Below are positions 1 to 56,460 of a stretch of DNA of 64,000 bases, piece by piece. Within the stretch, counting starts at the first letter, position 1. The number at the start of each line of letters is the position of its first letter. The stretch is from Williamsia serinedens (GTDB lineage: Bacteria > Actinomycetota > Actinomycetes > Mycobacteriales > Mycobacteriaceae), in assembly GCF_024171725.1 (NCBI RefSeq), contig NZ_JAMTCG010000005.1:372001-436000 (forward strand), given 5' to 3'. The translations under genes were made by a program, and so were the position numbers. The notes beneath the pieces were generated by a model. It was given only the letters and a program-made list of their open reading frames with translations, did not search any database and was not told the origin of the DNA.

Positions 1-441
1 GTGTCGATCGTGTCCGTGGGCTCGGGTGTGTTCCTGGTGTCGGGTGTGGCGAGCGCGCTGTACCTGATCAAGCTGCGCTGGCCCGAGGCCGGGACCGGCA
101 TCGGCGGCCGCATCCTCGACCGTCTGCCCTCTGCGGAGGCACTGGACCGCGTGGCCTACAAGACCGTCGTGTTCGCGTTCCCGCTGTTCGGACTCGGGGT
201 GATCTGCGGTGCCATCTGGGCCGAGTCGGCCTGGGGTCGCTTCTGGGGGTGGGACCCCAAGGAGACGGTGTCGTTCATCGCCTGGATCATCTACGCGGCG
301 TACCTGCACGCGCGCGCGACGGCAGGCTGGCGGAACACGAACGCGGCGTGGATCAACATCGCCGGCTTCGTGGCGATGCTGTTCAACCTCTTCATCATCA
401 ACCTCGTCGTGTCGGGGCTGCACTCCTACGCCGGACTCTGA
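1..441 (+). CDS. ccsB: Cytochrome c biogenesis protein CcsB/CcsA-type, C-terminal part
   Basis: This is the C-terminal part of the integral membrane haem-handling protein of system II cytochrome c maturation, which with ResB presents haem for attachment to apocytochrome c outside the membrane. The visible 146 residues carry the family's tryptophan-rich WWD-type signature (WGRFWGWDPKET at about residues 78-89), followed by further membrane helices. Family members are usually about 300-340 residues, so the N-terminal half lies before the window; the GTG at base 1 is probably an internal valine codon. In M. tuberculosis the ortholog sits a few genes from menA, as here. The family assignment is secure; the true start cannot be seen. 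Confidence 0.9.
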   Translation: MSIVSVGSGVFLVSGVASALYLIKLRWPEAGTGIGGRILDRLPSAEALDRVAYKTVVFAFPLFGLGVICGAIWAESAWGRFWGWDPKETVSFIAWIIYAAYLHARATAGWRNTNAAWINIAGFVAMLFNLFIINLVVSGLHSYAGL

Positions 442-35423: not shown

Positions 35424-36364
35424 CCTGCGATTTCTTCGCGGTACCGCGGCTACGGCATCATCGTGGGGTGCGGCGGGCGACTCGGTGGGTGACGACAGTC
35501 GTCGTCGGGCTCTCCGCGATCGGCCTGCTCGCCGTCCCCGCGCCCGCCCTGGCACGCAGCGAATCGTGTGCCCCGGTCGTCGTCATCCCGATCCGGGGGA
35601 GCGGCGACGGCAGTGTCGGCGCCCGGCGCTACGGCGACATGGTCACCGACGGCTGGGAGGGCGCGACGCTCAGCACCCTCCTCTCCGAGACCTACCGGGA
35701 TCAGCCGGCGATCCGCGCCGTGCCCGTTCTCTCCGTCGGCCGCGGTTATCAAGCCGTCGGCACCGAGGACGGGATCCGGCACCGCAGCTTCGGCCGGTCC
35801 GTCGCGTCGGGTGTCTCGACGGCCGTCGACGCCTACGACTCCGCGCGGGCGGAAGGCAGTCCGGGATGCGCCCCGATGGTGGTCCTCGTCGGTTTCTCGC
35901 AGGGTGCAGCCGTGGCCCGCGGAGTCGCCGTCGAGCTGTCGAAGCGGTCGGTGGTGGCCGCGGCCGTACTGATGGGTGACCCGCTGCAGAAGCCGGAGGC
36001 CGACGGTGTGATGGGCACCGGCGACCGCGGCGAGGGGATCTGGCGCAATCGGGTCGGTGCGGTGGTCAGCGGCGTCGACGCCCAGGGCGCCGACGCCTAC
36101 TACGCGATCCGCGGGATGCGCCGCATGTCCGTGTGTCACGTCGGGGATCCGGTGTGCGACTTCCGCATCGGCACCGATGTCTCCGGGCACCCGCACACCA
36201 CATATCTCGCCGACACCACGCGGTTCCAGACGTCCTCCCGCGCGACGCCGCTGGGACCGTCGGAACTCGACGTCCTCGCCGCGACCCTGCGCGGGGACAT
36301 CCTCTGGGCCGCCGAGCGCTACACACCGGCGAGCCAGTCCCGCACGAGCTCGACGAGGACCTGA
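35420..36364 (+). CDS. Cutinase-family secreted serine esterase, copy 1
   Basis: An alpha/beta hydrolase of the cutinase/CULP family. The signal peptide is best seen from the internal GTG at 35468 (RRATRWVTTVVVGLSAIGLL ... ALA), so that may be the true start; the GTGA overlap favours 35420. The nucleophile serine is in VLVGFSQGAAVARG; the acid in HVGDPVCDFR; the histidine in SGHPHTTYL. Four conserved cysteines are present (SESCAP, GSPGCAP, VCHVGDPVC). Mycobacterial relatives are lipid esterases or phospholipases. A similar gene follows in tandem. Confidence 0.85.
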   Translation: MTCDFFAVPRLRHHRGVRRATRWVTTVVVGLSAIGLLAVPAPALARSESCAPVVVIPIRGSGDGSVGARRYGDMVTDGWEGATLSTLLSETYRDQPAIRAVPVLSVGRGYQAVGTEDGIRHRSFGRSVASGVSTAVDAYDSARAEGSPGCAPMVVLVGFSQGAAVARGVAVELSKRSVVAAAVLMGDPLQKPEADGVMGTGDRGEGIWRNRVGAVVSGVDAQGADAYYAIRGMRRMSVCHVGDPVCDFRIGTDVSGHPHTTYLADTTRFQTSSRATPLGPSELDVLAATLRGDILWAAERYTPASQSRTSSTRT

Positions 36365-36424: not shown

Positions 36425-37288
36425 ATGGTGGGGAAACGGTGGGGTGCCGCGCTCGCAGCTGTCGTCGTCGCGGCGTCGGGTCTGATCGCGACGAGTGGGT
36501 CGGCGGGCGCGGACGTTCTCGGGCTGGGCGGTTCGTGTCCGGCGGCGGTGGTGATCCCCGCCCGCGGCAGCGGCGATCCCGTCGCTTCGCAGCAGTACGG
36601 CAACAGCCGCAGCGACGGCTACGAGGGCCCGCTGTTGTCGACGCTCCTCGCCGCGACCTATCGGGACGACCCTTCCATCGCGTCAATCCCCGTTGTGACC
36701 ACCGGCCCCGGGTACCGCGCGGTGTCGGTGCCGGAGGGGACGGCGAACCGCTCGTTCGGGATCTCGATCGCCTCCGGGGTCGCGGCCGTGATCGCCCGAT
36801 ACGACGCCGTCTCCGCCGCAGGTGGATTCGGCTGCCGACCGAAAGCCGTCCTGGTCGGGTACTCGCAAGGTGCAGCCGTGGTCCGAGCGGCGGCAATCGC
36901 GCTGGCGCCGCGCCGAGTGGTGAGCGCGGTGATGCTGTTCGGTGACCCTCGGCAGCGGCCGTCCGCGCCCGGTGTCGTCGGCGCGGGGTCCACGGGCAGC
37001 GGGGTCTGGCGCGATGAGGGCGTCGCACTGGCGTCCGGTGTCTCGACGGTGGGCATCGAGACCTACTACCAACTCCCCGGGCTACAGCGCTGGGCTCTGT
37101 GTCACGATCGGGATCCGTTGTGCGACTTCGGCCCTGACGCCGACTTCGCCGGCGACCCGCACAAGACCTACCTCCAGCCGGACCAGCTGTTCGTCCCGGC
37201 AGCGGGGCAGGCGCCGACGTCGCAGACCGAACTGCAGGTCGCGGTCGCCACGCTCCGCGGGTTCATCGCCGGCGCGACCCGGCGGTGA
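36425..37288 (+). CDS. Cutinase-family secreted serine esterase, copy 2
   Basis: A 287-residue paralog of the preceding gene: signal peptide (residues 1-29), nucleophile serine in VLVGYSQGAAVVRA, acid in HDRDPLCDFG, histidine in AGDPHKTYL, and cysteines at corresponding places. The two differ throughout, so the duplication is old. The stop overlaps the start of the broken nitroreductase (GTGA). The substrate is unknown; lipids or polyesters are usual for the family. Confidence 0.88.
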   Translation: MVGKRWGAALAAVVVAASGLIATSGSAGADVLGLGGSCPAAVVIPARGSGDPVASQQYGNSRSDGYEGPLLSTLLAATYRDDPSIASIPVVTTGPGYRAVSVPEGTANRSFGISIASGVAAVIARYDAVSAAGGFGCRPKAVLVGYSQGAAVVRAAAIALAPRRVVSAVMLFGDPRQRPSAPGVVGAGSTGSGVWRDEGVALASGVSTVGIETYYQLPGLQRWALCHDRDPLCDFGPDADFAGDPHKTYLQPDQLFVPAAGQAPTSQTELQVAVATLRGFIAGATRR

Positions 37289-37980
37289 CAGATCGACCCA
37301 CGACGGTCGAGGACGCGGTGCTCTCACGGCACAGCGTGCGGGCGTTCAGCGACAGGCCGGTCCCGCGAGAGACGGTCGAACGTCTCCTGGGCCTCGCTGC
37401 GCGCTCGGCAAGCAACTCGAATTCGCAGCCGTGGCACGTCTACGTCCTCACCGGTGATCGCAAGGACCGGCTGACGCGCGCTCTCTGGGCAGCACTCGAC
37501 GAGGGTCGCTCGGCCACCGATCCGCGGTACGGGTATTAGCCACCGCCGGGCGAGTGGGAGGAGCCCTTCCGCAGTCGCCGGTCCGTCTTCGGCCGCGGGC
37601 TCTATCAGGACACGCTCGGCATCGCCCGCGACGACCGTGACGGGAGGGCCGCGCATCATCGCCGCAACTACGCGTTCTTCGGGGCGCCGGTCGGACTCAT
37701 CATCACCGTCAGTGCCGACCTGGGGGCGGGCGCGTTCGTCGACGCCGGACTGTTCCTGCAGGCGCTCATGCTGCTCGCTCGTGCCGAGGGCCTCGACACC
37801 TGCGCGCAGGCGTCCTTCGTCGACTTCGACCCGGTGATCCGCGGCGAACTGGCGATCCCCGACGACCGGATCATCGTCTGTGGGATGTCACTCGGCTACG
37901 CCGACGACACCGAGAGGGTCAACGCGTTCCGCTCCGACCGCGAGCCCCTCGACGCCGTCGTCACGTTCGTCGGCGAGTAG
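37285..37980 (+). pseudogene. Nitroreductase gene interrupted by an in-frame TAG
   Basis: The first 84 codons encode a nitroreductase N-terminus (LSRHSVRAFSDRPVPRETVE, ARSASNSNSQPWHVYVLTG). A TAG at 37537-37539 stops it after RYGY. The same frame then continues without a shift for 146 codons with the rest of the domain (EEPFRSRRSVFGRGLY, YAFFGAPVGLIITVSADLG, LDTCAQASFVDFDPVIRGEL, IIVCGMSLGYAD). The total of 231 residues is normal for the family. A single-base change from a Tyr codon (TAC or TAT) explains it. It may be a fresh pseudogene, a read-through gene or a sequencing error. No compensating restart with a good ribosome site is seen. Confidence 0.9.
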
Positions 37981-39072: not shown

Positions 39073-39786
39073 GTGGCCGAGATGAACTGTGCCAGTTGCG
39101 ATGCGCTTCTTCGTGATGGTGCACCGTTCTGCGACACCTGCGGCACACCCGTGCGCGGTCGAGTCGTCACCGCGCCGGCGTCCGTGTCGCCCGCGGCCTC
39201 ACCCGTCGACGCTACCCCTGACGAGCGGAACCAGGACGCCCCCTCGCGCACGTCGGACACCCTGCCTGCCGGCGTGGGAGTCCGGGTCGCGTGTGCAGCC
39301 ATCGACGCCGGTGTGCCCCTCGCCGCTGGTGGACTCGTCGTCGTCGCTGCAGCCGTCACGGGGATCGCCGGGCTGGGGTACGTCGTCGCGCCGCTGGTCG
39401 TCCTCGCCCTGGGCATCTGGAACCTGGCGTTCGCCGCGCTCACCGGCGCGAGTTTCGGTCGCGCCGCCATGGGCACCAGGGTTGTCACAGGAGACCCGGA
39501 CGCCCCCGCACCCGGCCTCTCGCGCGTGTGGGTCCGCGCTCTAGTCGCGTCGCTCACGGGTGGCCTGGCGTGCCTCGGTGTCCTCGGCGACCCGCGCCGA
39601 CGCGGATGGCACGATCGCGCCGCGGGAGTCGAGGTCATCGACATCCTCAACGGCCCGAACCCGTTCGGCGAACGTCCCGTCGCCCCGGTCCTCCGACGCG
39701 CCCGACGCGGTCTGGTCGACGTCTCCTCACCGATCTCGCGCCCCGTCTCGGCCGTCGATCCGGTCGATCAGCCGGCGACGACGTGA
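39073..39786 (+). CDS. Zinc-ribbon RDD-family membrane protein
   Basis: A 237-residue protein with an N-terminal zinc ribbon (CASCDALLRDGAPFCDTCG, two CxxC knuckles), a disordered linker, and an RDD domain with three membrane helices (about residues 80-165; VRVACAAIDAGVPLAAGGLV, then ALTGASFGRAAMGTRVV) and RRGWHDRAAGVEVID. I chose GTG 39073 because GGGAG lies five bases upstream; a GTG at 39061 is an alternative. It is the first gene of the type VII-like operon, coupled by GTGA to the ATPase. RDD proteins have no fixed role; here it may anchor or regulate the ATPase. Confidence 0.75.
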   Translation: MAEMNCASCDALLRDGAPFCDTCGTPVRGRVVTAPASVSPAASPVDATPDERNQDAPSRTSDTLPAGVGVRVACAAIDAGVPLAAGGLVVVAAAVTGIAGLGYVVAPLVVLALGIWNLAFAALTGASFGRAAMGTRVVTGDPDAPAPGLSRVWVRALVASLTGGLACLGVLGDPRRRGWHDRAAGVEVIDILNGPNPFGERPVAPVLRRARRGLVDVSSPISRPVSAVDPVDQPATT

Positions 39787-42700
39787 GGCTCGCACTGGCG
39801 GTGCGCGGCGTCGACGAATCGCTGGTCCGCGTCGCGGCCACCACCGACGGCACCGCGACGGTGCAAGACCTCGCGACCGCCCTCCGCGACGGTGACCCCC
39901 GGGGAAGGGTGGACACGCAGTCGGTCACGGTCCGTCTGTGGCGGGACGGACAGGCGCAGTCGACGCTCTCACCGGGGATGCCACTGGTGCAGAGCGGTAT
40001 CCGCTCGGGTGCCACCGTCGAGGTCGTCGCCGCTCCCTCGGACGATCTCGTGGAGGGGACCGTGCGTGGCCGGTCCGTCGCGATGGTCCGGATCGTCTCG
40101 GGTCCCGACGGCGGCAAGGAGTTCCTCGTCCCGTCGGGTGTCAGCACCGTCGGGTCGGCTGCCACCGATCACGTCCGTGTCGTCGACCCGGCCGTGGGGG
40201 CCGCACGCATCGTCCTGAACGTCGGCGAGAACATCGAGATCGTCGCGGGTGACCCGATCCGTCTGGGGACGCGGACCGTCACCCGGGCGTTGATCCGTCC
40301 CGACGACGTCGTCGGCGTGGGTGGGACCACATTCGTGGTCCTCCCGACCCACCGCTCGGGTCTCGACGGTGATGACAGCGGCATCGAGATCAACCGGTCG
40401 CCGCGCGTCGTCGCGCGCTTCGCCGGGATGACGCTGCGCGCTCCCGAGCCCCCGAAGCCACCGCAACCGCAACGGTTTCCCCTCGTGTCGATGCTGGCGC
40501 CACTGGCGATGGGACTCGTGCTGCTGGCGGCCACACGCAGCGTTCTGTCCGTCGTCTTCGTGGCCCTGAGCCCACTCCTGATGCTGGGGATGTGGCTCGA
40601 CGGTCGGATGCAGGAGTCGAAGGCCCGTCGGGTGGGGACGGAACGTTTCACCGCCGCCGTCGCCGCCTTCCGCGCGGACCTCGACAAGCACTCCCGTGTC
40701 GAGCGGGCGGTCCGTCTGTCGGAGTCGCCGTCGGCACAGGACGCGATCACCGCGATCCACCGCCACGGTCCGCTGTTGTGGACGCACCGGCCCGAGCACT
40801 CGGGCTATCTGACCGTCCGGCTCGGCCTGGGTGAGTGCCCCTCCCGCACGGTCGTGGAGCTGCCCGAACGCGGTGAGGCCGAGGAGTCGCACTGGGCGGC
40901 CCTGGTCGACGTCGCCACGGAGTACCGCACCATCACCGATGTCCCCGTCGTCGCGGACCTCCGTTCCTCGGGCGCGCTGGGCGTCTGCGGGCCGCGATCA
41001 CTGGCCGACGGCGTCGCGCGCGCGGTGCTGGTCCAGCTCGTCGGGCTGCACTCGCCGGCCGAGATGGTGGTGGCCGCAGTGGTGTCCGAGGACAGGGTCG
41101 CGGTCTGGGACTGGGTGGAATGGCTTCCGCATCTGGGATCGGTGCACAGCCCGCTCGAGGGGGAGCACGCAGCGTCGACGCCCACGGGCTGCGCATCGCT
41201 CATCACCCGCCTCGACGAGGTGGTCCGTCGGCGACGCGCGGATCGCGACGCGCGCGGGATCAACCGCGGTGCGACGTCGCAGGCCGACACGGCGATGCCG
41301 CTCGTCGAGAAGCCGATCACGGACGTGCCCGCGATCGTCGTCCTCGTCGACGACGCCGCACCCATCGACCGCGCGCGGGCTGTCCGTCTCGCCGAGACCG
41401 GGCCGGACGTCGGTGTGCATCTCATCTGGGTGGCGTCTCAGATCTCGGCGCTGCCCGCCGCGTGCAGGTCGTTCGTCCTCGTCGAGGATGCGGCGTCGGG
41501 GTCGACCGCGGGATCGGTCCGCGTGGGCACCCACACGTTCCCGATGGAGACCGAGTCGGTCGGGGTCGATGCGGCGCAGGACATCGCGGTCCTCCTCGCC
41601 CCGCTGGTCGACGTCGGTGTCGCCGCCGACGACCGCACCGACCTGCCGTCGTCGCTGCACCTGCTGTCGCTCACCGGGGACGGGATCGCGACGGATCCGT
41701 CGGCGGTGATCGCGCGCTGGGAGGCCACCGACTCGGTGATCGACCGCAGCGGGCGTCGTCGGCGGCGTTCGGTGGCGACCGGTCTGCGCGCGCCGGTCGG
41801 CTCCACCGGTGCGGACACCTTCTGGCTCGACCTGCGCCGCGACGGGCCCCACGCTCTCCTCGGCGGGACGACGGGCTCGGGGAAGAGCGAGTTCCTGCAG
41901 TCGTGGATCCTCGGGATGGCCGCCGAGCACAGCCCCGACCGCGTCTCGTTCCTCTTCGTCGACTACAAGGGCGGCACGGCGTTCGCGGACTGTGTCCGTC
42001 TGCCGCACACCGTCGGCCTAGTCACCGATCTCTCAGCGCACCTCGTCGATCGGGCGCTCGCGTCGCTCCGTGCAGAACTGCGCTTCCGCGAGCACCTGCT
42101 GAACGTCAAACGAGTCAAAGACCATCGGACGCTGGAGGAGTCGGGTGATCCCGACGCCCCTCCCAGTCTGGTCGTGGTGGTCGACGAGTTCGCGGCGCTG
42201 GTCCACGACGTCCCCGAGTTCGTCGACGGGATGGTCGATCTCGCGGCTCGCGGCCGGTCGTTGGGTCTGCACGTCATCCTCGCCACCCAGCGACCCGCCG
42301 GTGTCATCAAGGAGAACCTGCGGGCGAACGCGAACCTGCGGATCGCGCTGCGCATGGCGGACGCGGACGACTCGGTGGACATCCTCAACGCGCCCGATGC
42401 GGCTCACTTCCCAGCACATGTGCCGGGCCGCGCCGCGGCCAAGATCGGCAACGCGCCCCTGCGGGCGTTCCAGGGCGGATACAGCGGGGGGTGGAGCGCC
42501 GGTCGTGGCTCGACGGCTGCGGTCGACCTCACGCCGCTCGCGCTCGGCGACGGACGACCCTGGGCGTCTGAACGATCTGACGACGTCGACAACGACGACC
42601 TCGGCGCGCCCGACATGGTCCTCGTCGTGGACACGGTGATCGCCGCTGCGGAACGGCTCGAGATCCCGTCGCCCCGCAGACCGTGGTTGCCCGAGCTGCC

Positions 42701-44195
42701 GCCGGCGTGTGACGTCCGTGAGCTCGATGCGGAATCGCCGGGGTCATATCCGATCGGGGTCCTCGATCTGCCCGAACAGCAACGCCAGCCGGTCGCGGTC
42801 TACACGCCCGAGAAGGACGGCACCATGCTGGTGCTGGGGACCGGTGGGTCGGGCAAGTCCGCCGCCCTCCGGACCGTCGCGGTGTCGGCGACCCTCGCCG
42901 AACCCCTCGGCGTGGAGATCTACGGGATCGACTGCGGGTCCGGCGGTCTGCGGATGCTCGAGCCCCTGCCGACGGTGGGCGCAGTCATCGCGCTCGACGA
43001 CGAGGAGCGGATCGGTCGGCTGTTGCGACGGGTCTGGGCTCTCATCGAGTCCCGGATCGCCGAGTTCGGCACGGCGGTCTCGGGCCTCGCGGAACATCGT
43101 GCGGCCGTGCCGTCGTCGACAGACCCGCGGGTCCTGCTCCTCGTCGACCAGATCGGGGCGTTCCGCGACGCCTACGAGGTGTCGACGACCGCGCCCTTCG
43201 TCGACCTGCTCACCCGGATCGCCGCCAACGGTCGGGCCGTCGGTGTCCACGTCGTCGCCTCGGCCGACCGGCCGAACGCCGTACCTCCCGCACTCGCCGC
43301 CGTCGTCACCCACCGGATCACGCTGCGCCTCGCGGACGAGACCGCCTACACCCTGGCGGGTGTCCGGCCGGGTGCCCTCGACGCCACCGCCCCGCCCGGG
43401 CGCGGCATCGTCGACGGGGTCGAGATGCAGTTCGCCACGGCGGGCGGCTCGCAGGACGTCGGACGCCAGTCCGCGGCGCTGCGTGACATCGTCGACGGCC
43501 TCGACGCGACGACGTCCGCCCCAGGCGTCGAACGGCTCTCGGAGATGATCTGGCTCGACGAGCTGCCGGCCGAGAGTGGGGGAGAGCCGGTGGTGGGCGT
43601 CCGGGACCTCGATCTGCAACCCGCCACCGTCACACCGTCCGGCGTCCTCATGGTGACCGGTCCGCCCGGCAGCGGGCGGTCGACGGCGCTCACGACGATT
43701 GTCGCGGCGGCCCGCCGTGCCCGACCCGGTCTCAAGACGATCCTCATCGCGCCGTTCCGGACACCTCTCGCCGGCTCCGATGTCTGGGACGCGGTGGCCG
43801 TCGGCGACGAGGCACTCGTGGAGCGCGCCGACATGTTCATCGCCGCGGCCGAATCCGCCCCCGCCGGTGACCTTCTCGCGGTGGTCGAGTCGGCGACCTC
43901 GATCCGCGGGGCGGCGGAATCCGAGCTGGCGCGCGTGCTCAAGGTCCTCGTCGACCGTGATCACGGTGTCGTCGGCGAGGCCGAGGTCTCGACCTGGAAC
44001 TCGGCATTCACCATCGGACCGATCTTCAAGGCCGCACGACGCGGCCTGCTCCTGCACCCGGGCGATCTCGACGGCGACTCGCTGTTCGGGACGCCGGTGC
44101 GCCGGCCCCCGACGGGCCCCATGATCCCGGGCCGCGGCTACCTCGTCGAACGAGGTTCTGCGACACGTGTGCAGTTGGCGATCGTCGGCAACTGA
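39783..44195 (+). CDS. FHA-bearing EssC/EccC-like FtsK/SpoIIIE ATPase
   Basis: A 1470-residue type VII-secretion-type motor. Residues 1-85 look ubiquitin-like; about 95-185 is an FHA-like domain (MVRIVSGPDGGKEFLVPSG ... GGTTFVVL); two membrane helices lie near 235-275. Three FtsK-type ATPase modules follow. D1 has Walker A GGTTGSGKSEF near 694 and Walker B VVVVDEFAAL near 796. D2 has GTGGSGKSA near 1018 but VLLLVDQIG near 1117. D3 has GPPGSGRST near 1292, with Arg for Lys. Only D1 looks fully catalytic, as is known for EccC. The N-terminal FHA resembles EssC of firmicutes rather than mycobacterial EccC. GTGA start overlap; the WXG100 gene follows. Confidence 0.85.
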   Translation: MRLALAVRGVDESLVRVAATTDGTATVQDLATALRDGDPRGRVDTQSVTVRLWRDGQAQSTLSPGMPLVQSGIRSGATVEVVAAPSDDLVEGTVRGRSVAMVRIVSGPDGGKEFLVPSGVSTVGSAATDHVRVVDPAVGAARIVLNVGENIEIVAGDPIRLGTRTVTRALIRPDDVVGVGGTTFVVLPTHRSGLDGDDSGIEINRSPRVVARFAGMTLRAPEPPKPPQPQRFPLVSMLAPLAMGLVLLAATRSVLSVVFVALSPLLMLGMWLDGRMQESKARRVGTERFTAAVAAFRADLDKHSRVERAVRLSESPSAQDAITAIHRHGPLLWTHRPEHSGYLTVRLGLGECPSRTVVELPERGEAEESHWAALVDVATEYRTITDVPVVADLRSSGALGVCGPRSLADGVARAVLVQLVGLHSPAEMVVAAVVSEDRVAVWDWVEWLPHLGSVHSPLEGEHAASTPTGCASLITRLDEVVRRRRADRDARGINRGATSQADTAMPLVEKPITDVPAIVVLVDDAAPIDRARAVRLAETGPDVGVHLIWVASQISALPAACRSFVLVEDAASGSTAGSVRVGTHTFPMETESVGVDAAQDIAVLLAPLVDVGVAADDRTDLPSSLHLLSLTGDGIATDPSAVIARWEATDSVIDRSGRRRRRSVATGLRAPVGSTGADTFWLDLRRDGPHALLGGTTGSGKSEFLQSWILGMAAEHSPDRVSFLFVDYKGGTAFADCVRLPHTVGLVTDLSAHLVDRALASLRAELRFREHLLNVKRVKDHRTLEESGDPDAPPSLVVVVDEFAALVHDVPEFVDGMVDLAARGRSLGLHVILATQRPAGVIKENLRANANLRIALRMADADDSVDILNAPDAAHFPAHVPGRAAAKIGNAPLRAFQGGYSGGWSAGRGSTAAVDLTPLALGDGRPWASERSDDVDNDDLGAPDMVLVVDTVIAAAERLEIPSPRRPWLPELPPACDVRELDAESPGSYPIGVLDLPEQQRQPVAVYTPEKDGTMLVLGTGGSGKSAALRTVAVSATLAEPLGVEIYGIDCGSGGLRMLEPLPTVGAVIALDDEERIGRLLRRVWALIESRIAEFGTAVSGLAEHRAAVPSSTDPRVLLLVDQIGAFRDAYEVSTTAPFVDLLTRIAANGRAVGVHVVASADRPNAVPPALAAVVTHRITLRLADETAYTLAGVRPGALDATAPPGRGIVDGVEMQFATAGGSQDVGRQSAALRDIVDGLDATTSAPGVERLSEMIWLDELPAESGGEPVVGVRDLDLQPATVTPSGVLMVTGPPGSGRSTALTTIVAAARRARPGLKTILIAPFRTPLAGSDVWDAVAVGDEALVERADMFIAAAESAPAGDLLAVVESATSIRGAAESELARVLKVLVDRDHGVVGEAEVSTWNSAFTIGPIFKAARRGLLLHPGDLDGDSLFGTPVRRPPTGPMIPGRGYLVERGSATRVQLAIVGN

Positions 44196-44219
44196 CGTCC
44201 TCGAGAAAGGCTCCACCCC

Positions 44220-44483
44220 ATGGCATTCATCGGCAACGATCCCGGCCAGCTGCGCAACCTCGCGGCACAGCTCAACGGCAACGCGGACCAGATCCAGAAC
44301 ATCCTCACCCAGCTGACCTCGCAGCTGAACAACGTCCAGTGGCAGGGTGCGGACGCCGCCCGGTTCCGCTCCGAGTGGACGGGCCAGCACACCTCGCAGC
44401 TGCGTGCGGTCATCAACGCCCTCCACGACGCCTCGCGTACCGCGACCACCAACGCATCCCAGCAGGAGACGGCGAGCGCCTGA
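44220..44483 (+). CDS. WXG100 family secreted protein
   Basis: An 87-residue helical-hairpin protein with the turn motif WQG in NNVQWQGADAARFRSEW (about residues 40-50). It is a classic ESAT-6/CFP-10-size type VII substrate. No C-terminal YxxxD/E export signal is visible (it ends ASQQETASA). A GAGAAAGG ribosome-site-like stretch precedes the ATG. It lies 24 bp after the ATPase and probably pairs with the following WXG-type protein. Confidence 0.92.
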   Translation: MAFIGNDPGQLRNLAAQLNGNADQIQNILTQLTSQLNNVQWQGADAARFRSEWTGQHTSQLRAVINALHDASRTATTNASQQETASA

Positions 44484-44508
44484 CGGCGATCGATCCGAGG
44501 GGACACCG

Positions 44509-45309
44509 ATGACATTCGACGGCGCGGACACCGCTGCTCTCACGACACTCGCCGGCCAGATGGGCCGCGCCGCAGACGACCTCGACCACGTCGTCGCATC
44601 GATGGGGTCGACCCTCGGATCGACGCAGTGGACGGGCGCGGACGCCGCGCGATTCCGTTCGACCTGGGACTCGGACTCCGCCCGCGCATTGCGCGCGGCG
44701 AGCAGCGCCCTGCGCGACGCGGGCCGGCGACTGGTCGCCGAGGCGCGCCAGCAGGATCAGGCCAGTGCTGCCGATGGCGGCTCGATCGGCGGTGCGATCG
44801 CGGGGGGCGGCGCGATCGCGGGAGGTGGTGCAGCCTTCATCGGTGGCGCGACCGACGGACTCATCGACCGTTTCGACCGGGCCGTTCCGGGCGGCCTGGC
44901 GAACCTCGGTTCTCTGGGACTCTCGGCGTCGGCGATGGGGCTCGACAAGGCGTTCGATCTCGTCACGAGAGATCTGAACGTCGGCGCCGGCCTCAGCGCG
45001 GCCACCTCCGCATGGCATCTCGGCGAGGCCGCCGGTGCTCTCGCATCGGGGGACTACATGGGTGCTCTGGATTCGGGCCTCCATTCGGCGGCGGACGGTC
45101 TCAAGGCGGCGCCCAACCCGACGCTGAACCTAACCGGCTCCGCGCTGGGGATATGGACCTTCGTCGGCGAGGAGGCCGTGAAGGCGGACTTCCCGAACAC
45201 GTGGGGCCCGACCATGGACTACATCCGCACGAACCCGATGGACGCCATGGGTGGCGCGCTCGACGGGATCACCAACTCGTGGACATCGATTGCAGGAGCG
45301 ATCCTGTGA
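44509..45309 (+). CDS. Long WXG100-type protein with a C-terminal extension
   Basis: A 266-residue protein whose first 95 residues form a WXG100 hairpin (WTG turn in GSTQWTGADAARFRSTW) nearly identical at the turn to its neighbour. A Gly/Ala-rich hydrophobic stretch follows (AIAGGGAIAGGGAAFIGG, about 100-117), then an Ala/Gly-rich domain of about 140 residues ending PMDAMGGALDGITNSWTS. No nuclease or NADase motif is seen. The layout fits a type VII effector or a membrane-active substrate. Its stop overlaps the next start (GTGA), a position often held by a chaperone or immunity gene. Confidence 0.8.
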   Translation: MTFDGADTAALTTLAGQMGRAADDLDHVVASMGSTLGSTQWTGADAARFRSTWDSDSARALRAASSALRDAGRRLVAEARQQDQASAADGGSIGGAIAGGGAIAGGGAAFIGGATDGLIDRFDRAVPGGLANLGSLGLSASAMGLDKAFDLVTRDLNVGAGLSAATSAWHLGEAAGALASGDYMGALDSGLHSAADGLKAAPNPTLNLTGSALGIWTFVGEEAVKADFPNTWGPTMDYIRTNPMDAMGGALDGITNSWTSIAGAIL

Positions 45310-45953
45310 CGAACCTCGCCTTCACCGACGACGAGGTCGTCGCAGCCGCCTCCTTCCGTGAGAAGGGGTGGCCGACGCCGGTCGCTCTGGCCGACAACGG
45401 GAACCCGACTCGGGACGAGGCTCAGGCCGCGGTTCGGCGGGGCGCCCGCTCGTTGCTCGCCCGCGGACTGCTCGCGATGACCGACGGACGGGCCGAGCTG
45501 TCGGCCGAGGTGACCGTGCCGCTCGAGCGCATGTCCGACCTGCGCCACGTCGTGGTGTACCCGGCGCGTAGCTCCGACCCGGCACATGCGTTGTATCCGC
45601 TGCTCTACGTCCATCCCGCTGTCGACGGCGAGATGGTCGTCGAACTCGACTCGGGCGACGGGATCCGCGGTGTCGCGACGATGGTGACGGACGCCGTGGC
45701 CGACCAGCTGATCACCACGGCGAGATCGGTCTTCCGGCGGGAGCAGTCCGGTGACCGACCCGTGCTGCACCTTGTCCGCATTCATCCCGACGGCGCGGAA
45801 CTCTCCGTCGTCTCACCGGGGGAGATCGTCATCTCGACGATCGAGGCCGACGGGTCCTCCACGCCGTCCGCGGTCACCCCCTTCTTCGACACCGCCATCA
45901 TCCGAGCCCTCCTCGCACCACTGGGCCTCGAACAGGAAGAGCAACCGGCATGA
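45306..45953 (+). CDS. Unknown soluble protein of the type VII-like operon
   Basis: A 215-residue protein without signal peptide or membrane helix. It has a mixed alpha/beta character: ARSLLARGLLAMTDGRAELS, then LRHVVVYPARSSDPAHALYP, VVELDSGDGIRGVATMV and a C-terminal helix. Size, cytosolic nature and position just after the WXG substrates suggest an EspG-like chaperone or an immunity protein, but I cannot show sequence identity with either. It is coupled on both sides (GTGA, ATGA). Confidence 0.6.
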   Translation: MTNLAFTDDEVVAAASFREKGWPTPVALADNGNPTRDEAQAAVRRGARSLLARGLLAMTDGRAELSAEVTVPLERMSDLRHVVVYPARSSDPAHALYPLLYVHPAVDGEMVVELDSGDGIRGVATMVTDAVADQLITTARSVFRREQSGDRPVLHLVRIHPDGAELSVVSPGEIVISTIEADGSSTPSAVTPFFDTAIIRALLAPLGLEQEEQPA

Positions 45954-47527
45954 GTGACACACCCACCGTCCCCGTCCCGACCGCGGCCGCGACCCGACGC
46001 CGTCGGACGGTGATCCTCTCGTCGCTGGCCGGCGTCCTCGCGGTCATCGTCGTCGCGGCCACCGTCATGGTGGTGAGCATGCGGCCGGACTCGGGTGCGC
46101 CCGATCCCCGGGTCGACCTCGCGTCGGTCTCGACCGTCGGGCCGAATCCGTTCGCCGCGTTGACGAACGCGACCGCCGCGCCGGTGGAGGCCACGCGCGT
46201 CGACACCTCACTTGCCCGACCGGCGAGCGGGGCGACGCAGCTCGTCGGAACGACACCCGGGCTGTACGCGGGAAGCGACGGCAGCCGATGCGACCCCGCC
46301 GCCTTGGCGCGCTACCTCGGTTCGGACTTCACCCGTGCGCAGGCGTGGGCCGGCGTCTTCGGCATCACCGCCGACCAGATCCCGTACTTCCTCAACAGCC
46401 TGACCCCCGTCACGCTCACCGCGGACACCTGGGTGACCAATCACTCCTGGGAGGACGGCGTCGCCCGGCCCTTCCAGTCGGTGCTGCAGGCCGGCACACC
46501 GGTGCTCGTCGACTCCGAGGGCGTGCCCCGCGTCCGATGTGCCTGCGGCAACCCGCTGGGTCCGCCGGCGAGTGCCCCGCTGTCCGGGTTCCGGACGTCG
46601 GGTGCCGCGTGGCCGGGCTACCAGACCACTCGCGTGGTGCACGTGCAGACCGCCGCTCCTGCCGCTGCGCCCGGACAGGTCCAGGCATCGGCTCCGGCCT
46701 CGCTGACGGTGCGCAACGCGTCGACCGGTGACCTCGTCCAGCAGGCCTTCTCCGCGCTGCTGAACCTCGCGTCGCTGCCGCCGCTGGCCAAGCCCCTGCC
46801 CACCGCGGCATCGATGAACGTCCCGTTCCGATCGACCGATCCAGCGGTGGCCCAGTCGAACGGCGTCACGACGCAGGGCGTCGCGCTGCCGGAGATGACC
46901 CGCGCGGCAGCGGGCGTGACGGTGTCGGAGACCGCCACCTCGACAACCGAGTCGTCTGCGGCGCCTGCGCCGTCCACGGCCGCCGCAGCGGCCGCGACGT
47001 CGATCCCGTCGTCGTCCGTCGCGCCCGCGGTGATCCCGCCGCCTGTCGCCCCGGTCGCACCCGTCGCCCCGCCGGTCGAGTCGTCGGCTGCTCTGCCGCC
47101 CCCGCCGGTCGAGTCGTCCGCACCGGTCGCGGGGCCCGCGCCGACGAGTGAGCCGCCGAGCACCTCGGCCGGCCCGCTCCCCACGAAGTTCACCGGGACG
47201 GGTTCGGGCATCACGGGATTCACCTACGCGGACACCTCCGGGGCGCCGGTCCGGTGTTCGGTGCAGGCCGTCCCGGTGTCGACGCCGACCGAGGTCCCGC
47301 CGACCTCGTCCGACCCGTCCGCATCGGACACCCCTGCGCCGGCCCCGGAGACGACCGAGGCCACACCGACGGACGCGACGGTGACGTGCTCCGACGGTTC
47401 GACGACCACGGTTCCCCTGACGACCCTGTCGCAGGCGACCGTGCAGTCCTCGACGGACACGCAGGGAGTCTGGACCGTGAGTCTGGGTGGTGCGTCCATC
47501 CCGGTCACCGAGGCGACCTGGGGCTGA
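45950..47527 (+). CDS. Membrane-anchored DUF6777-like protein with Pro/Ser/Ala-rich stalk
   Basis: A 525-residue protein: short cytoplasmic N-terminus, one membrane helix (residues 22-43), and an extracytoplasmic domain (about 85-215) with TPGLYAGSDGSRCDPAALAR, ADTWVTNHSWEDGVARPFQS and VPRVRCACGNPLGPP, which I recall as the DUF6777 pattern. A long Pro/Ala/Ser-rich segment (about 320-420) and a short C-terminal beta region with two cysteines follow. It could reach into the cell wall. ATGA overlap with the previous gene makes it the last gene of the type VII-like operon; a hairpin follows. Confidence 0.7.
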   Translation: MSDTPTVPVPTAAATRRRRTVILSSLAGVLAVIVVAATVMVVSMRPDSGAPDPRVDLASVSTVGPNPFAALTNATAAPVEATRVDTSLARPASGATQLVGTTPGLYAGSDGSRCDPAALARYLGSDFTRAQAWAGVFGITADQIPYFLNSLTPVTLTADTWVTNHSWEDGVARPFQSVLQAGTPVLVDSEGVPRVRCACGNPLGPPASAPLSGFRTSGAAWPGYQTTRVVHVQTAAPAAAPGQVQASAPASLTVRNASTGDLVQQAFSALLNLASLPPLAKPLPTAASMNVPFRSTDPAVAQSNGVTTQGVALPEMTRAAAGVTVSETATSTTESSAAPAPSTAAAAAATSIPSSSVAPAVIPPPVAPVAPVAPPVESSAALPPPPVESSAPVAGPAPTSEPPSTSAGPLPTKFTGTGSGITGFTYADTSGAPVRCSVQAVPVSTPTEVPPTSSDPSASDTPAPAPETTEATPTDATVTCSDGSTTTVPLTTLSQATVQSSTDTQGVWTVSLGGASIPVTEATWG

Positions 47528-47896: not shown

Positions 47897-48025
47897 CCGG
47901 GCGCGGTCGCGCACGACGTTCCCCCGCCGTGACCGAGCGGACGACGCGGGTACCGATCCCGCATCTTCAACTCATCGAATGGAATCTGCACGATCGCGGA
48001 CTCCCGCAGCTTGTACGGTCAGCGG

Positions 48026-49132
48026 ATGAATGCGCGGACGCGGTGGTCGCTGGTCTACGCGGCGGTGGCGGTGCTGCTCACCGTCACGGCCTGCACCGTG
48101 CGCGCCGAGCCCGCGCCGGACCCGCCCCGTACCGTGGCCGCCACCTCGAGCGGGTTCACCCTCGACGGTGATCCGTGGTGGCCGTCCGGGATGGACGCCT
48201 ACCAGTTGGCGACGAACTGGTCGATCAACCGCGGTTGCGGCGCCCAGGTCGATCTCGACGCCTACTTCGGCAGCCTCCCCCCGAACGCGCTGACCCGCTT
48301 CGATCTGTTCGCGGCCCTGGCGGTCAACAAATTCACCGGCGCCGTGGACTTCCGTCCCGCCGACGCGGTGTTCGCTGCCGCGGCGCGGCACCACCAACTG
48401 GTGCTGCCGGTGCTGGTCGGTGGTGACGGGGCCTGCGAGAGCGGCGAGTTCAAGCAACGTGACTGGTACGTCGACGGGTGGAAGACGGAGTCCGCGTTCG
48501 GCGGGATGACCTACCAGCAGTGGCTCACCACCGCCGTCACGCGATGGCGCGGCTCCCCGGCGCTGGCCGGGTGGGAGCCGGTGGGTGAGCCCGAGCCGGG
48601 TGTCTGTGGCCGGTCGTGCGCATTCCCCGACCGGACGTGCCCGTCAGATGCCGGCGCGGTGCTCCGCGGGTTCTTCGACACCGCGGGTGGCGCCGTCCGC
48701 GCGCTCGACCCGAATCGGCTCGTGTTCTCCGGGCTCGCGGGTGGCGGGCAATGTGGCAGCGCGGGAGACGACTACGAGCTCGTCGGCCGGTCACCCGGTG
48801 TCTCCGTGCTGGACTATCACGACTACGGCGCCGACGGTGTGCCGCTGCCCGGTGACCAGTGGAACGGGCTGGGGCGGCGGATCACCCAGGCCAGGGCGGT
48901 GGGCAAGCCGATCGTGGTGAACGAGATCGGACAGAACGCAGGATCGTGTGGCACCGTCGACGACCGCGCGACCGACGTCCGTCGGAAGGTGACGGGTCAG
49001 CGAGCCGCGGGGACCGCCGGAGCCCTCTTCTGGGCGTTCGTCCCCGACCCACGGAACGACCAGTGCACCTTTGACATCGGTCCGGGGGACCCGCTCTTCG
49101 GCCTGGCAGGGGACATGCTCAGTCAGGGGTGA
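48026..49132 (+). CDS. GH5-like glycoside hydrolase lipoprotein
   Basis: A 368-residue protein with a lipoprotein signal (lipobox VTAC at about residues 20-23) and a TIM-barrel glycosidase-like domain. The acid/base glutamate is probably in LAGWEPVGEPEPG and the nucleophile in GKPIVVNEIGQNAGSC; the first strand has PSGMDAYQLATNW. This resembles GH5-type cellulases and mannanases. ATG 48026 chosen by signal peptide. It overlaps by 14 bp, tail to tail, a cellulose-synthase-like operon, and bacterial cellulose loci usually include an endoglucanase. Confidence 0.7.
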   Translation: MNARTRWSLVYAAVAVLLTVTACTVRAEPAPDPPRTVAATSSGFTLDGDPWWPSGMDAYQLATNWSINRGCGAQVDLDAYFGSLPPNALTRFDLFAALAVNKFTGAVDFRPADAVFAAAARHHQLVLPVLVGGDGACESGEFKQRDWYVDGWKTESAFGGMTYQQWLTTAVTRWRGSPALAGWEPVGEPEPGVCGRSCAFPDRTCPSDAGAVLRGFFDTAGGAVRALDPNRLVFSGLAGGGQCGSAGDDYELVGRSPGVSVLDYHDYGADGVPLPGDQWNGLGRRITQARAVGKPIVVNEIGQNAGSCGTVDDRATDVRRKVTGQRAAGTAGALFWAFVPDPRNDQCTFDIGPGDPLFGLAGDMLSQG

Positions 49133-50807
49133 CGCGGTAGACCCGCCAGGTGGGGAGGTCGTCGGCGACGTTCGGGAACTCGAGGTCGAGTGACGCGATC
49201 CGCGCCCCGTCCCCGTACAGGGTCGGGTAGCGCTGGTTCACCGCGTCGGTGACACCACGGCCACTGCGGGGGACGGCGAGGATGTAGCGGATCCCGAAGC
49301 GGGCCGGGTCGTTGAGGATCTGCGTGAAGTCCTGGTCCGACGGGATGACGAAGCGCCGGGGATCCGTGGTCCGGGCGAGGATCGCGAAACCGTACAGCGT
49401 GTCCACCAGGACGCTCCCACTCGGGAGTCGCTGTGCATCCAGCCATTCGGCGATCTGTCGTTCGGTGGAGAAGGACTGCGCCACCCGCCGGTCCTTGTCG
49501 ACGCGAACGCCCGTTGCGGTGGCGTCGTCCAGGACGGTCGCGCGCAAGGCCGCCTCCTGCGGTGCGTAGCGCTGCGACGCCATCAGCCCCCACGCGGACG
49601 GCAGGCTGACGGCGGTCGCGGCGATCACGATCGTCGCCACGATCACCTGCGATCGTGCGGTCGGTCGGCGGATCTCGGCGGGCCGCACCCGGCGCCCCGG
49701 CCGGCGCGCCGGAACCGGCGACCGAGCTGACAGCGCGAGCATCGCGACAACGACCCCGAGCGGCACGGCCGCGATGTAGAAGCGGAGGAACCCGAACGTC
49801 GCGCCGGTCACGTAGCTGGCCCCCTGGAACACGAGCACAGCGCCGAACACGGCGACCGGCACACCGATCGGGGCGGCACGGCCCAGTGTGATCCGTCGTG
49901 CGCCGATCACCACCACACCCACGAGCAGGGCGGGGAACAGCAGGAACGCATCGACCACGACGAACGCGATGCGCTGCAGCAGATCCCCGGGTGTGCCGCC
50001 GGCCTGGCTCACGATCGCCGAGTTGCCGTACTCGGAGGTGAACTGCGCCAACGCGTTCCCGGTGATCAGCCAACTCGTCGCCGCCCACGCGACGAACGCC
50101 ACCACCGCAGGTGCGACCACGAGCGCCATGTCGACGACGACCCGCGAGATGCACCACCGCAACGGCCGGAGCGGACTGCGTCGCTGCAGCGAGACGACGC
50201 CGACCACGGCCGCCGCCGCAGCGGTCGCGGCGACGGCGTCGTAACGGGTGAGGTAAGCCAGTCCGAGACAGATCCCGGCGGTCACCAGATCGTGCACGTC
50301 GTCGGAATCGACCCACCGGATGAGTCGGCGAACGGCCCAGCACAGGAAGAACAGGAACGGCGCCTCGCTCATCCCGTTCCCGCCGTAGAACACGATCATC
50401 GGGTGCACCGCGAAGAGGATCGTCAGCGCCACCGTGCAGACGGTGGGCAGACGACGGTCCCGGCCGACACCCCACACGTGGTACACCGCCCCCGCCATGA
50501 ACACCGCCGACATGACAACGCCCGAGACGGCATCGGCGGTGATCCACGTGAAGGCATGCGCGAGCGCGACTGTCGGTAGCTGGATGAGGGCTGTCAGTGG
50601 CGTGAAGACGAAACCGATGGCGGCGACGTGCGGGTCGCGGCTGAAGATGACCGACTGGGCGGACTGCACCCGGGACAGGGCGTCGCCCATGAGGAACTGA
50701 CGGTCGACGGTGATGAACCACCCGGCGACGAGGAACAGGATCAGCGCCGCGGCGAAGACAGCAGCTCCCGGGCGACGTCGTCGACGCCGCACCGCCTCCG
50801 ACGTCAC
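49119..50807 (-). CDS. GT-C-like polytopic glycosyltransferase
   Basis: A 562-residue membrane protein with about ten helices (residues 17-415) and an extracytoplasmic C-terminal domain (about 415-562). After the first helix comes RQFLMGDALSRVQSA, whose acidic loop recalls the catalytic loop of GT-C enzymes using polyprenyl-phosphate sugars. YGGNGMSEAPFLFFLCWAVR and GLAYLTRYDAV are also typical of such proteins. GTG at 50807 overlaps the upstream stop (GTGA), making it the last gene of the four-gene operon. Sugar donor and acceptor unknown. Confidence 0.65.
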   Translation of the reverse strand: MTSEAVRRRRRRPGAAVFAAALILFLVAGWFITVDRQFLMGDALSRVQSAQSVIFSRDPHVAAIGFVFTPLTALIQLPTVALAHAFTWITADAVSGVVMSAVFMAGAVYHVWGVGRDRRLPTVCTVALTILFAVHPMIVFYGGNGMSEAPFLFFLCWAVRRLIRWVDSDDVHDLVTAGICLGLAYLTRYDAVAATAAAAAVVGVVSLQRRSPLRPLRWCISRVVVDMALVVAPAVVAFVAWAATSWLITGNALAQFTSEYGNSAIVSQAGGTPGDLLQRIAFVVVDAFLLFPALLVGVVVIGARRITLGRAAPIGVPVAVFGAVLVFQGASYVTGATFGFLRFYIAAVPLGVVVAMLALSARSPVPARRPGRRVRPAEIRRPTARSQVIVATIVIAATAVSLPSAWGLMASQRYAPQEAALRATVLDDATATGVRVDKDRRVAQSFSTERQIAEWLDAQRLPSGSVLVDTLYGFAILARTTDPRRFVIPSDQDFTQILNDPARFGIRYILAVPRSGRGVTDAVNQRYPTLYGDGARIASLDLEFPNVADDLPTWRVYRVTPD

Positions 50808-52303
50808 GTCTCCGCGACCGGGGACGGGGCGGCGGCGGGCTGCGTCGTGCTGCTCCCGATCCCGTGCGCCGTCTTCTCCCAGTACGACGGGTTGCGGAGC
50901 AGTTGCCAGGTCCCCTTGACCGCGGCGATGCCCATCAGGACCCAGTAGAAGGGCACGATGAGCGCAGGCCAGAACAACTCGGGCCTGTCGTCCTCGCGGA
51001 TGGCGATCAGCGTCATGTACACGGTCGCGGCGTTGCCCAGGATCATCGAGACCAGCGAGGGGTAGTAGATCGCCGGGGGCAGGATCTCGGTGATCTCGGT
51101 GGGCTGACCGAGGATCCAGACGATCAGCATGAACCAGAACGCGACGTTCAGGCATGCGATGAGCGGAGTCCCGGCGAAGAGCGTCGCCAACCGGAACGTC
51201 CCGACCGGTCCGAGGGTGCGCATCACGCTCACCGGTGTGCGCATGTGCACCAGGAACGTCTGGAGATAGCCCTTGTACCACCGCGATCGTTGGCGGATCC
51301 AGTTGATCGCGTCGATGTTCGCCTCCTCCCAGGTGGTGGAGTCGAGCACCGCCGTCCTCATGCCGTGCACCGCGATCCGGATGCCGAGGTCGGCGTCCTC
51401 GGTGACGTTGAACGGGTCCCACGCCCCGATCTCGTCGAGGACCCGCCGACGGAGGTGATTGGACGTGCCGCCCAACGGGATCGGCGACCGGCTCGCCATC
51501 AGGCCCGGCAGGAGGAACCCGAACCAGAGCCCGTAGTCGGCGGTGAACCACGCGGTCAGCACGTTGTCGCCGGAGTTGTGGAAGTCCAGCCGGGCCTGCA
51601 CGCAGGCGACGTCGTCGTCGAGCTCGGTGAAGGCGACGGCGACGCGTCGCAACTGCAGCGGGTCGGGGACGTCCTCGGCGTCGTAGATGGTGACGATGTC
51701 GCCGGTGGCGAAATGCAACCCGAAGTTGCACGCCTTGGGTTTGGTGCGCGGCTGCGCGGCCGGGACGAGCAGCACGGTCACGGCGCCGCTGCTGATCACG
51801 TCGGCCGCCGCGGTGATCGTGGCCTCGTCGTCCTCCTCGAGGAGCAGGAGCACCTGGAGCTTCTCGCGGGGGTAGCGCAGCGACTCCATCGCCGCGACCA
51901 GCCCACCGACGACCTCGGGTTCGTCGTAGGCGGGCACCAGGACCGTGTAGTTCGGGAGGTCGTCGTCGGCGAGGGCCAGGGCGGTCTCGTCGGACACGCG
52001 GATCGGCCCGCCGGCCAGTCCCCGCCGGAACAGGACGATGCGGTCGATGATCGTGGCGACGTAGGAGAACGTCGCGATGCCGGCGAGCGCGGTGAGGGTG
52101 GCGGTGGTCGCGAGCACAAGTCCCGCCACGACGAGCACCGTGACCACGACGAGAGTCCACTTCTGCCACGGCACGAACGCCACCGAAGCGGACAGATGGG
52201 GCCGCCCGACGCGGATGCCGTCGATGGAGTCCGTGAGCGCTTCGTCGACGGTGAGGCCGTCCGCGGTGGGCGGCATCGGGACCGCGCGGGGATCGCTGCT
52301 CAC
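50804..52303 (-). CDS. BcsA-like processive family-2 glycosyltransferase
   Basis: A 499-residue GT2 enzyme with two N-terminal helices, a cytosolic catalytic domain and C-terminal helices. The processive D,D,D,Q-x-x-R-W set is present: LVPAYDEPEVVGG, IYDAEDVPDPLQL, FNVTEDADLGIRI and WIRQRSRWYKGYL, plus the gating-type TWEEANIDAINW. This is the arrangement of cellulose and related beta-glucan synthases. There is no PilZ domain, so direct cyclic di-GMP control is not expected. GTG overlaps the upstream stop (GTGA). The product is inferred to be a beta-linked exopolysaccharide. Confidence 0.88.
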   Translation of the reverse strand: MSSDPRAVPMPPTADGLTVDEALTDSIDGIRVGRPHLSASVAFVPWQKWTLVVVTVLVVAGLVLATTATLTALAGIATFSYVATIIDRIVLFRRGLAGGPIRVSDETALALADDDLPNYTVLVPAYDEPEVVGGLVAAMESLRYPREKLQVLLLLEEDDEATITAAADVISSGAVTVLLVPAAQPRTKPKACNFGLHFATGDIVTIYDAEDVPDPLQLRRVAVAFTELDDDVACVQARLDFHNSGDNVLTAWFTADYGLWFGFLLPGLMASRSPIPLGGTSNHLRRRVLDEIGAWDPFNVTEDADLGIRIAVHGMRTAVLDSTTWEEANIDAINWIRQRSRWYKGYLQTFLVHMRTPVSVMRTLGPVGTFRLATLFAGTPLIACLNVAFWFMLIVWILGQPTEITEILPPAIYYPSLVSMILGNAATVYMTLIAIREDDRPELFWPALIVPFYWVLMGIAAVKGTWQLLRNPSYWEKTAHGIGSSTTQPAAAPSPVAET

Positions 52304-55805: not shown

Positions 55806-56460
55806 CAGGTCCCCATTTCTCGATTGCACATCAAAACTTCGACAAGCCGCACAACAGTGCAAGTAATACACCACGGGTGCCGAGTCGGTGGCCTTACCGA
55901 TGGGTCAGTTCGTGCTGTATCGCATTGGGGGGGCGAGGATTCCGCACACTACAAGCAATCGGGATGACAACTGACAAATGTGGTGATGTGAATTCAATTC
56001 GGCTGGCGGCTGGAATGCGTCGACCGCATCGGGCCGATTCGATCGGCGCCGCCACGCGACAACGTTCGCGGCGAGAAGGAGTTGGGGTCCGAAACGATTC
56101 TGAACAGACTGTCCAGATTGGTCACACAAAGAACCGGATCTCTATGTCGAATGACTCGCGCGTGCCGTAGCTTTCATCGTGCAGGCGGCACGGGCCGCGG
56201 ACTCGCCCCCCCAGCACCAGAGCCCATCGACCCCTACAAGCGCCCCCTATGGCGCGTCGTGGAAACCCCCGGTCCGATTTCATCCCCCTGGCTCGGATCG
56301 GGGGCAGGGCGGTCCCACACCTTCGCCCGCGCTCTCGTTCCGCCAACCTTCGACTGCGATTCCTCGACTGTCGAAGGTGCCAACTGGAAGGGGGCGTGTG
56401 TGAAGCTCGGCGTGCCTGTTGAGAAGCGCCTCGTGGCAACCGCTTCGATGAATCTGCAGG

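Follow-up and report, generated by a model that had tools for sequence, protein, structure and literature searches.

A reduced type VII secretion operon in Williamsia serinedens, from a lineage probably distinct from ESX

The stretch of DNA analysed here, called the window, comprises 64,000 nucleotides of the Williamsia serinedens genome (contig NZ_JAMTCG010000005.1, positions 372,001 to 436,000) and contains, on its forward strand at positions 39082-47527, an operon encoding components of a type VII secretion system (T7SS). Six genes, all with open frames, follow one another in the order A to F (Table 1); they overlap at three of the five junctions and are spaced by 24 and 25 bases at the others. 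An earlier note on this DNA had described a co-directional six-gene operon with overlaps, which the coordinates bear out, and had named among its parts a zinc-ribbon/RDD membrane protein, an FtsK-type ATPase, a WXG100 protein, and a DUF6777 protein, all of which are recognized by Pfam, the zinc ribbon weakly. An ATPase of the EccC/EssC type thereby adjoins a WXG100 gene, which is the general criterion for a T7SS. The operon is real and conserved in gene content, it recurs in other genomes, and its ATPase is separate from EccC and has lost its FHA motif. In the following, L-numbers denote loci, G-numbers genomes (that of the window being G000), and f4 is one of the locus sets compared.

Table 1. 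The six genes of the operon and the N-terminal domains of its ATPase (aa, amino acids)
Feature	Length (aa)	Position in the window	Strand	Evidence and remarks
Gene A, zinc-ribbon and RDD membrane protein	234	39082..39786	+	Pfam RDD 9.4e-12; zinc ribbon weak
Gene B, T7SS ATPase	1470	39783..44195	+	Pfam FtsK_SpoIIIE 5e-55; GTG start overlaps RDD stop
Ubiquitin-like domain (by profile), ATPase residues 1-92		39783..40058	+	Profile against PDB, best 8.8e-8
Degenerate FHA domain, ATPase residues about 98-201		40074..40385	+	PF16697 1.4e-4; motif GSGRDP
Gene C, WXG100 protein, TsxA/EsxA type	87	44220..44483	+	PF06013 1.1e-8
Gene D, long WXG protein	266	44509..45309	+	TIGR03930 0.0025 (below cut-off); similarity to C
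Gene E, soluble protein, no family	215	45306..45953	+	Profile-profile comparison with EspG
Gene F, DUF6777 protein	525	45950..47527	+	PF20568 9.8e-50

The ATPase encoded by gene B has a transmembrane-like pair at residues 231-271 and three P-loop domains, with Walker-A-like motifs at 695, 1019, and 1293; the first two are standard, the third has arginine instead of lysine. In a tree of D1 domains (86 rows, about 255 columns, with L159, L142, L136, and L253 as long rows) 63 actinobacterial rows, that of the window included, lie on one side of a branch with support 100/95; the other 23 rows are 20 EccC, among them the genome's own and that of T. curvata, and the trio YukB, L209, and L211. L084 and L219 join the window in a single clade (100/97), and an arrangement that places these three with EccC is rejected by the approximately unbiased (AU) test (p-AU 0.0105; the group was named after the tree had been seen). 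That the ATPase is an ESX EccC is ruled out by the tree and the AU test; its position outside the EccC clade had been anticipated, and nesting within a known ESX clade was not seen. Inside the large group the window belongs to a 33-row subclade (100/97) without L251, a locus that resembles the T7SSd class discussed below and that groups with a Streptomyces plasmid locus and f4 loci. Judged by these trees, the ATPase lineage is related to T7SSd; this type VII lineage is widespread and ESX-independent, and the window operon represents it in reduced form. The third, minimal class of T7SS suggested in the earlier note thus stands as regards a separate lineage, but not as regards a class of its own: in this large actinobacterial lineage the fuller operon comprises about ten gene kinds, and the window operon is a reduced offshoot. 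Matches of the ATPase to PADLOC models (mad8 1e-44, SspH 3.8e-31, HerA) cover the FtsK/HerA domains and, as we read them, have no meaning for defence.

The N-terminus of the ATPase is unusual. A profile built from 38 ATPase N-termini finds a redesigned ubiquitin in the PDB (8.8e-8), then a match at 1.8e-5, ISG15 (1.7e-4), and the EccD1 domain (0.52); compared with the ubiquitin-like domain of the genome's own EccD it gives an E of 2.8e-5 and a score of 30.5, the best of 200 shuffles reaching 17.2. The single ATPase sequence has no Pfam YukD match up to an E of 1. In a small test set all 20 EccC N-termini gave no match or an E of 0.8 or worse, L209 gave none, and L211 gave 1.8; among 32 other ATPases that were not used for building the profile, 26 match it at 1e-3 or better, the exceptions being L156, L253, L140, L160, L123, and L149 (L123 and L140 begin at a contig end). 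Weak matches come from L251 and L252 (1.2e-4 and 7.4e-5), which belong to a genus whose genomes measure 2.1 Mb. On this profile evidence the first ~90 residues of the ATPase are a fused ubiquitin-like domain and not an FHA domain. EsaB/YukD is an essential T7SS component whose role is unexplained; a ubiquitin-like domain fused to the motor could be a direct handle on that role.

An FHA domain follows, albeit weakly recognizable (PF16697 at 1.4e-4 is below the cut-off, and PF00498 has no match in the window ATPase in Pfam). The N-terminal FHA domain that had been claimed is therefore present in weak form, but the domain ahead of it is the ubiquitin-like one; as a sign of a firmicute EssC, it does not hold, being degenerate and preceded by that domain. 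We take the phosphothreonine-binding motif to be G-R ... S-x-x-H ... N-G and read it on the alignment. At the GRSHNG positions the window and its near twin L083 have GSGRDP, L084 has GRGQGG, and L219 has GSLHAG; on this alignment the phosphothreonine-binding residues of the window FHA domain are lost. The complete motif is found in 27 rows of the 33-row subclade, while L121 differs at one position, L262 is also degenerate, and L125 is without an FHA domain. Degenerate FHA domains also occur in the f4 loci L139, L143, L151, and L152 (probably Streptomyces), there with kinases nearby.

The relatives show what the window operon may have been reduced from. Ahead of the ATPase they have some or all of the following: a large Ig/cadherin/fn3 protein, MoxR, DUF58, a TgpA-type transglutaminase, an RDD-FHA protein, PP2C, an FHA protein, a Ser/Thr kinase, and a second FHA-like protein; the WXG genes come after the ATPase. 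Counted as same-strand genes within 12 kb at the 33 loci of the subclade, loci cut by a contig end being scored absent, WXG genes are present at 26, RDD at 21, FHA-like at 17, TgpA at 16, PP2C at 15, kinase at 14, DUF58 at 10, MoxR at 7, large Ig at 5, E at 5, and DUF6777 at 3. The earlier note had suggested that the RDD and DUF6777 proteins replace the usual membrane core and cell-wall parts; as regards EccB, EccD, and EccE this is conjecture, RDD being a frequent neighbour of the ATPase at these loci and DUF6777 a rare one. The RDD protein carries a C-terminal FHA domain in the fuller operons L117, L131, L191, and L128 (in L221 just under the cut-off) and none in the window, L084, and L219, and the reduced loci are without kinase, PP2C, and FHA genes. 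GRSHNG is found at all 14 loci with a kinase gene, and the kinase is missing at all five loci with a degenerate or absent FHA domain. Phosphorylation control thus seems to have been lost in the branch of the window, and nature has here, through the joint loss of the FHA motif and the kinase genes, supplied a ready-made means of testing whether type VII export is controlled by phosphorylation.

The earlier note had made the recurrence of the gene neighbourhood a matter for checking, and the neighbourhood does recur. A full-length ATPase is encoded in three of eight genomes of the genus (identity 100, 94, and 56%), the 94% being that of 'Uncultured Williamsia sp. isolate 235-3Z' (G302); all six genes are present in each of these carriers (G000, G302, and G298), in G298 with F first, followed by A to E in sequence. 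G563, from another genus of the same family, has five of the six (RDD, ATPase, WXG100, long WXG, and DUF6777), which brings the known carriers of the reduced set to four genomes in two genera. Within the family (Mycobacteriaceae) 6/151 genomes match the ATPase at 1e-100, G563 among them; two of these six, G532 and G403, have the fuller operon and not the reduced set. Across the phylum 54 of 396 genomes match at 1e-60, some of these matches being EccC; in the order sampled around G268, 146/248 do so at 1e-70 or better (at least one of them, in G314, is an EccC) and 71/248 at 1e-200. Plasmids also carry the lineage or its relatives: Streptomyces plasmid L192 (NZ_CP109482.1) has an ATPase of the same lineage together with a 'putative T7SS-secreted protein' and WXG100, with transposase genes on both sides, and the record of Arthrobacter plasmid L191 (NZ_AP024648.1) shows the ATPase as two separate frames of 1037 and 638 aa, with the fuller operon upstream.

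That the operon is a decaying remnant which has lost export is a scenario we regard as quite improbable. It would agree with the disappearance of the phosphoswitch residues and genes, with the low number of carriers in the genus (3/8), and with the arginine in the third Walker A motif; however, six frames have stayed open with three of five junctions overlapping, two of the three Walker A motifs, the first and the second, have the standard form, the ATPase is 56% (G298) and 51% (G563) identical over almost its whole length, and the same core is kept in two genera.

The genome of the window has a complete ESX set elsewhere, namely EccB, EccC, EccD with a YukD domain, mycosin, and EccE (contig C8), as well as EspG. 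The statement that the window itself is free of an ESX core holds for EccB, the sole match of the genome being on contig C8; EccD, EccE, and mycosin had no match among 26 window stretches given to Pfam, in which one gene is represented twice and which cover a part of the open reading frames of the window. EssA, EssB, and EsaA did not turn up among the operon genes in Pfam and NCBIfam scans, no dedicated search having been made. As to INDEPENDENCE from ESX, EccB is not needed by the lineage as a whole, because 91/105 carrier genomes are without it: 42/51 in a first survey, in which nine genomes were reached via named records, a few may be counted twice, and G110 and G187, both without EccB, are included though outside the 63-row group, and 49/54 in a second.

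Gene C also matches TIGR03930 (1.1e-9, below the cut-off). Gene D has a WXG-type N-terminus followed by a glycine/alanine-rich C-terminal part; its designation as a long WXG protein is backed by the sub-threshold TIGR03930 match and by likeness to C, but not by Pfam, in which PF06013 (WXG100) has no match in D. Genes at the position of D have the WXG-type start in common and differ in their ends, which are CHAP in L221 (4.1e-12) and L123 (3.8e-7), an alpha/beta hydrolase in L129 (1.5e-6), a weakly serine-hydrolase-like part in L219 (Lipase_3 0.042), and hydrophobic or glycine/alanine-rich in the window, L084, L122, L127, and the second such gene of L221. Since varied C-termini sit on a shared WXG-type start, the D-type genes look like cargo, which is the role we propose for D.

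Gene E is likely to encode an EspG-type chaperone, as judged from profiles. One built from seven E-type sequences matches 29 EspG sequences with an E of 4.4e-5 over 63 columns (Prob 69) and a score of 37.9, compared with at most 21.7 in 200 shuffles; the four closest E sequences alone give 1.1e-3. PF14011 (EspG) has no match in gene E, the profile of E finds nothing below 0.2 in the PDB, and the gene 3' of the long WXG gene in L122 was drawn into the E family only by iteration, and then over part of its length. At L211 (G187, same phylum), an EssC-like ATPase that does not begin with FHA is found together with PP2C, an FHA/zinc-ribbon protein, and two EspG-like proteins, a set partly like T7SSc; to our knowledge, T7SSc has been described only from Bacillota.

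The protein encoded by gene F starts with a transmembrane-like segment (residues 18-36), which is followed by the DUF6777 domain on the outside (46241-46660) and by a stalk that is, by composition, rich in Pro, Ala, Ser, and Thr. DUF6777 occurs in 17/296 genomes of the phylum. It is the outside domain of a Ser/Thr kinase in L072:1528-3855 (-) (Pkinase 4.9e-39, DUF6777 1.2e-58) and adjoins PASTA in L082; other DUF6777 proteins look exported. This suggests contact with the cell wall or sensing; no paper on DUF6777 was found in the open-licence literature. DUF6777 as a general partner of the ATPase was considered and rejected, since none of 21 other DUF6777 loci, covering at most about 10 kb on each side (four being shorter than 20 kb), has the ATPase at a phmmer E of 0.01.

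We think it probable that the operon encodes a type VII protein exporter that is reduced yet working and whose lineage stands apart from ESX, with export itself being what we infer. The ATPase would sit assembled in the membrane and, going by what is known of its family, drive folded WXG-type cargo out; its ubiquitin-like partner (elsewhere EsaB/YukD, or the N-terminus of EccD) is fused to its own N-terminus, as the profile shows. C would be the small WXG100 export partner and D a cargo that is delivered by its WXG end and whose C-terminus is exchangeable; E may pass D to the ATPase in the manner of an EspG-like chaperone, and the RDD protein A may be a core membrane partner. In the fuller operon, Ser/Thr kinase, PP2C, and FHA proteins might switch the machine via the FHA domains that the ATPase and the RDD protein carry. 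The branch of the window has kept neither the switch genes nor the FHA binding residues, on the evidence of gene content and alignment, and we propose that the DUF6777 rod there connects the machine with the cell wall.

Several observations weigh against this reading. The tree program flags the join at the long row L159, which adjoins the branch of the 63/23 split, and an earlier, 79-row tree gave only 90/78 to the branch that encloses 53 such rows (the next branch inward, with 51 rows, had 99/89). G563 yielded no gene E. An intact or nearly intact FHA motif is kept at fourteen loci that have no kinase gene within 12 kb, by which the notion that FHA loss accompanies kinase loss is weakened; and FHA loss amounts to two events on the tree (the clade of the window, L084, and L219 being one, with L262 and L125 included), so that a paired test has no statistical power for the link of kinase and FHA. 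Finally, EccB is present in all six Mycobacteriaceae carriers, for which reason the window's own branch could borrow ESX parts; such a loan is possible and compatible with the gene content. The operon would then be a second ATPase with its cargo that uses EccB, EccD, EccE, and mycosin of the ESX locus, of which the genome indeed has the complete set. We hold this to be unlikely, as outside the Mycobacteriaceae 91 of 99 searched carriers have no EccB, the ESX locus already has its own EccC, and the ATPase comes with a ubiquitin-like domain that in ESX belongs to EccD.

In the neighbourhood of the operon, two adjoining cutinase-like hydrolases are encoded upstream (35489-36364 and 36425-37288, both +; PF01083 4.2e-12 and 1.1e-11), followed by a nitroreductase gene (37285-37980, +) that seems split into two short frames, the first of which matches PF00881 at 3.2e-16; the relative L083 has one frame of 233 aa at this place. 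On the 3' side a protein without a Pfam family (48011-49132, +) is followed by a block (49119-55829, -) that includes a family-2 glycosyltransferase and a mannosyltransferase of the PMT type and that may be a polysaccharide cluster.

Compared with T7SSa, that is, ESX, the exporter proposed here has in common a three-P-loop ATPase of the FtsK type, a WXG100 partner, a probable EspG-like chaperone, and a ubiquitin-like domain; in the window, however, the latter is on the ATPase and not on EccD, there is no EccB, and the ATPase lies outside the EccC group. With T7SSb (EssC/YukB) it shares an N-terminal extension with an FHA domain ahead of the transmembrane pair. Its D1 is closer to that of YukB than to those of EccC by single-domain match in a PDB search (YukB 167 bits, T. 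curvata 122, EccC5 83), and the EssC model TIGR03928 is the best curated whole-protein model; yet the score of 500.7 bits is below the cut-off of 778.4, a ubiquitin-like domain stands where EssC has its first FHA domain, and YukB falls outside the 63-row group.

A further comparison is with T7SSd, for which the part of the description considered here lists the kinase TsdD, TsdH, and the large Ig protein TsdI, and for which the authors state that they found no protein of the ubiquitin-like kind (Garrett, Higginson and Palmer 2024, PMC11217815). L251 fits these published parts with WXG, a kinase, a protein with one transmembrane segment, a 1,798-aa Ig-like protein, and the ATPase, and it is via L251, not via the published TsdC, that the window is likened to T7SSd: both are from Actinomycetota, with an FHA-bearing ATPase and WXG100, and the ATPase of the T7SSd-like L251 is in the same 63-row group. 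This membership would be expected if the operon were simply T7SSd in another genus, a view we find highly doubtful: no same-strand kinase or large Ig-like gene lies within 12 kb of the window ATPase, which belongs to the subclade without L251, and in place of TsdD, TsdH, and TsdI the window has RDD, DUF6777, and E, which are absent from the T7SSd list in the part of PMC11217815 considered. The window ATPase also carries its own ubiquitin-like domain, to which the T7SSd-like loci L251 and L252 have weak profile matches, and the paper reports no such protein for T7SSd; a fusion to the ATPase would explain its absence there.

In the open-licence literature found, T7SSs of Actinomycetota consist of ESX and a narrowly distributed T7SSd, and no on-topic paper was found there on the combination of RDD, MoxR, FHA, WXG100, and transglutaminase; a widespread second exporter may thus be unstudied, and may have been overlooked given how many genomes match in the order around G268 (146 and 71 of 248). 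Gene kinds of the fuller operon resemble those of the PFNA operon of Bifidobacterium, described as pkb2, fn3, aaa-atp, duf58, tgm, prpC, and fha; the main texts of the two papers make no mention of FtsK, WXG, or type VII (PMC8430577, PMC6803598). Compared by description, the kinds in common are kinase, fn3/Ig giant, MoxR, DUF58, transglutaminase, PP2C, and FHA, which in relatives of the window operon lie ahead of the ATPase. At L115, L116, L117, L118, L121, L122, and L130, such genes and a type VII ATPase are lined up in a single run (fn3/Ig giant, MoxR, DUF58, and transglutaminase, with PP2C, FHA, and kinase in some). Tentatively, and with more doubt than confidence that all of it holds together, mycolic-acid bacteria may have, beside ESX, an independent exporter with the ubiquitin-like part in its ATPase, in which a DUF6777 rod in contact with the wall has taken the place of an ancestral kinase/phosphatase/FHA switch; this kind of fusion may also account for the ubiquitin-like protein that T7SSd is reported to lack, and the 'signalling' operon PFNA of Bifidobacterium may be the regulatory half of such an exporter.

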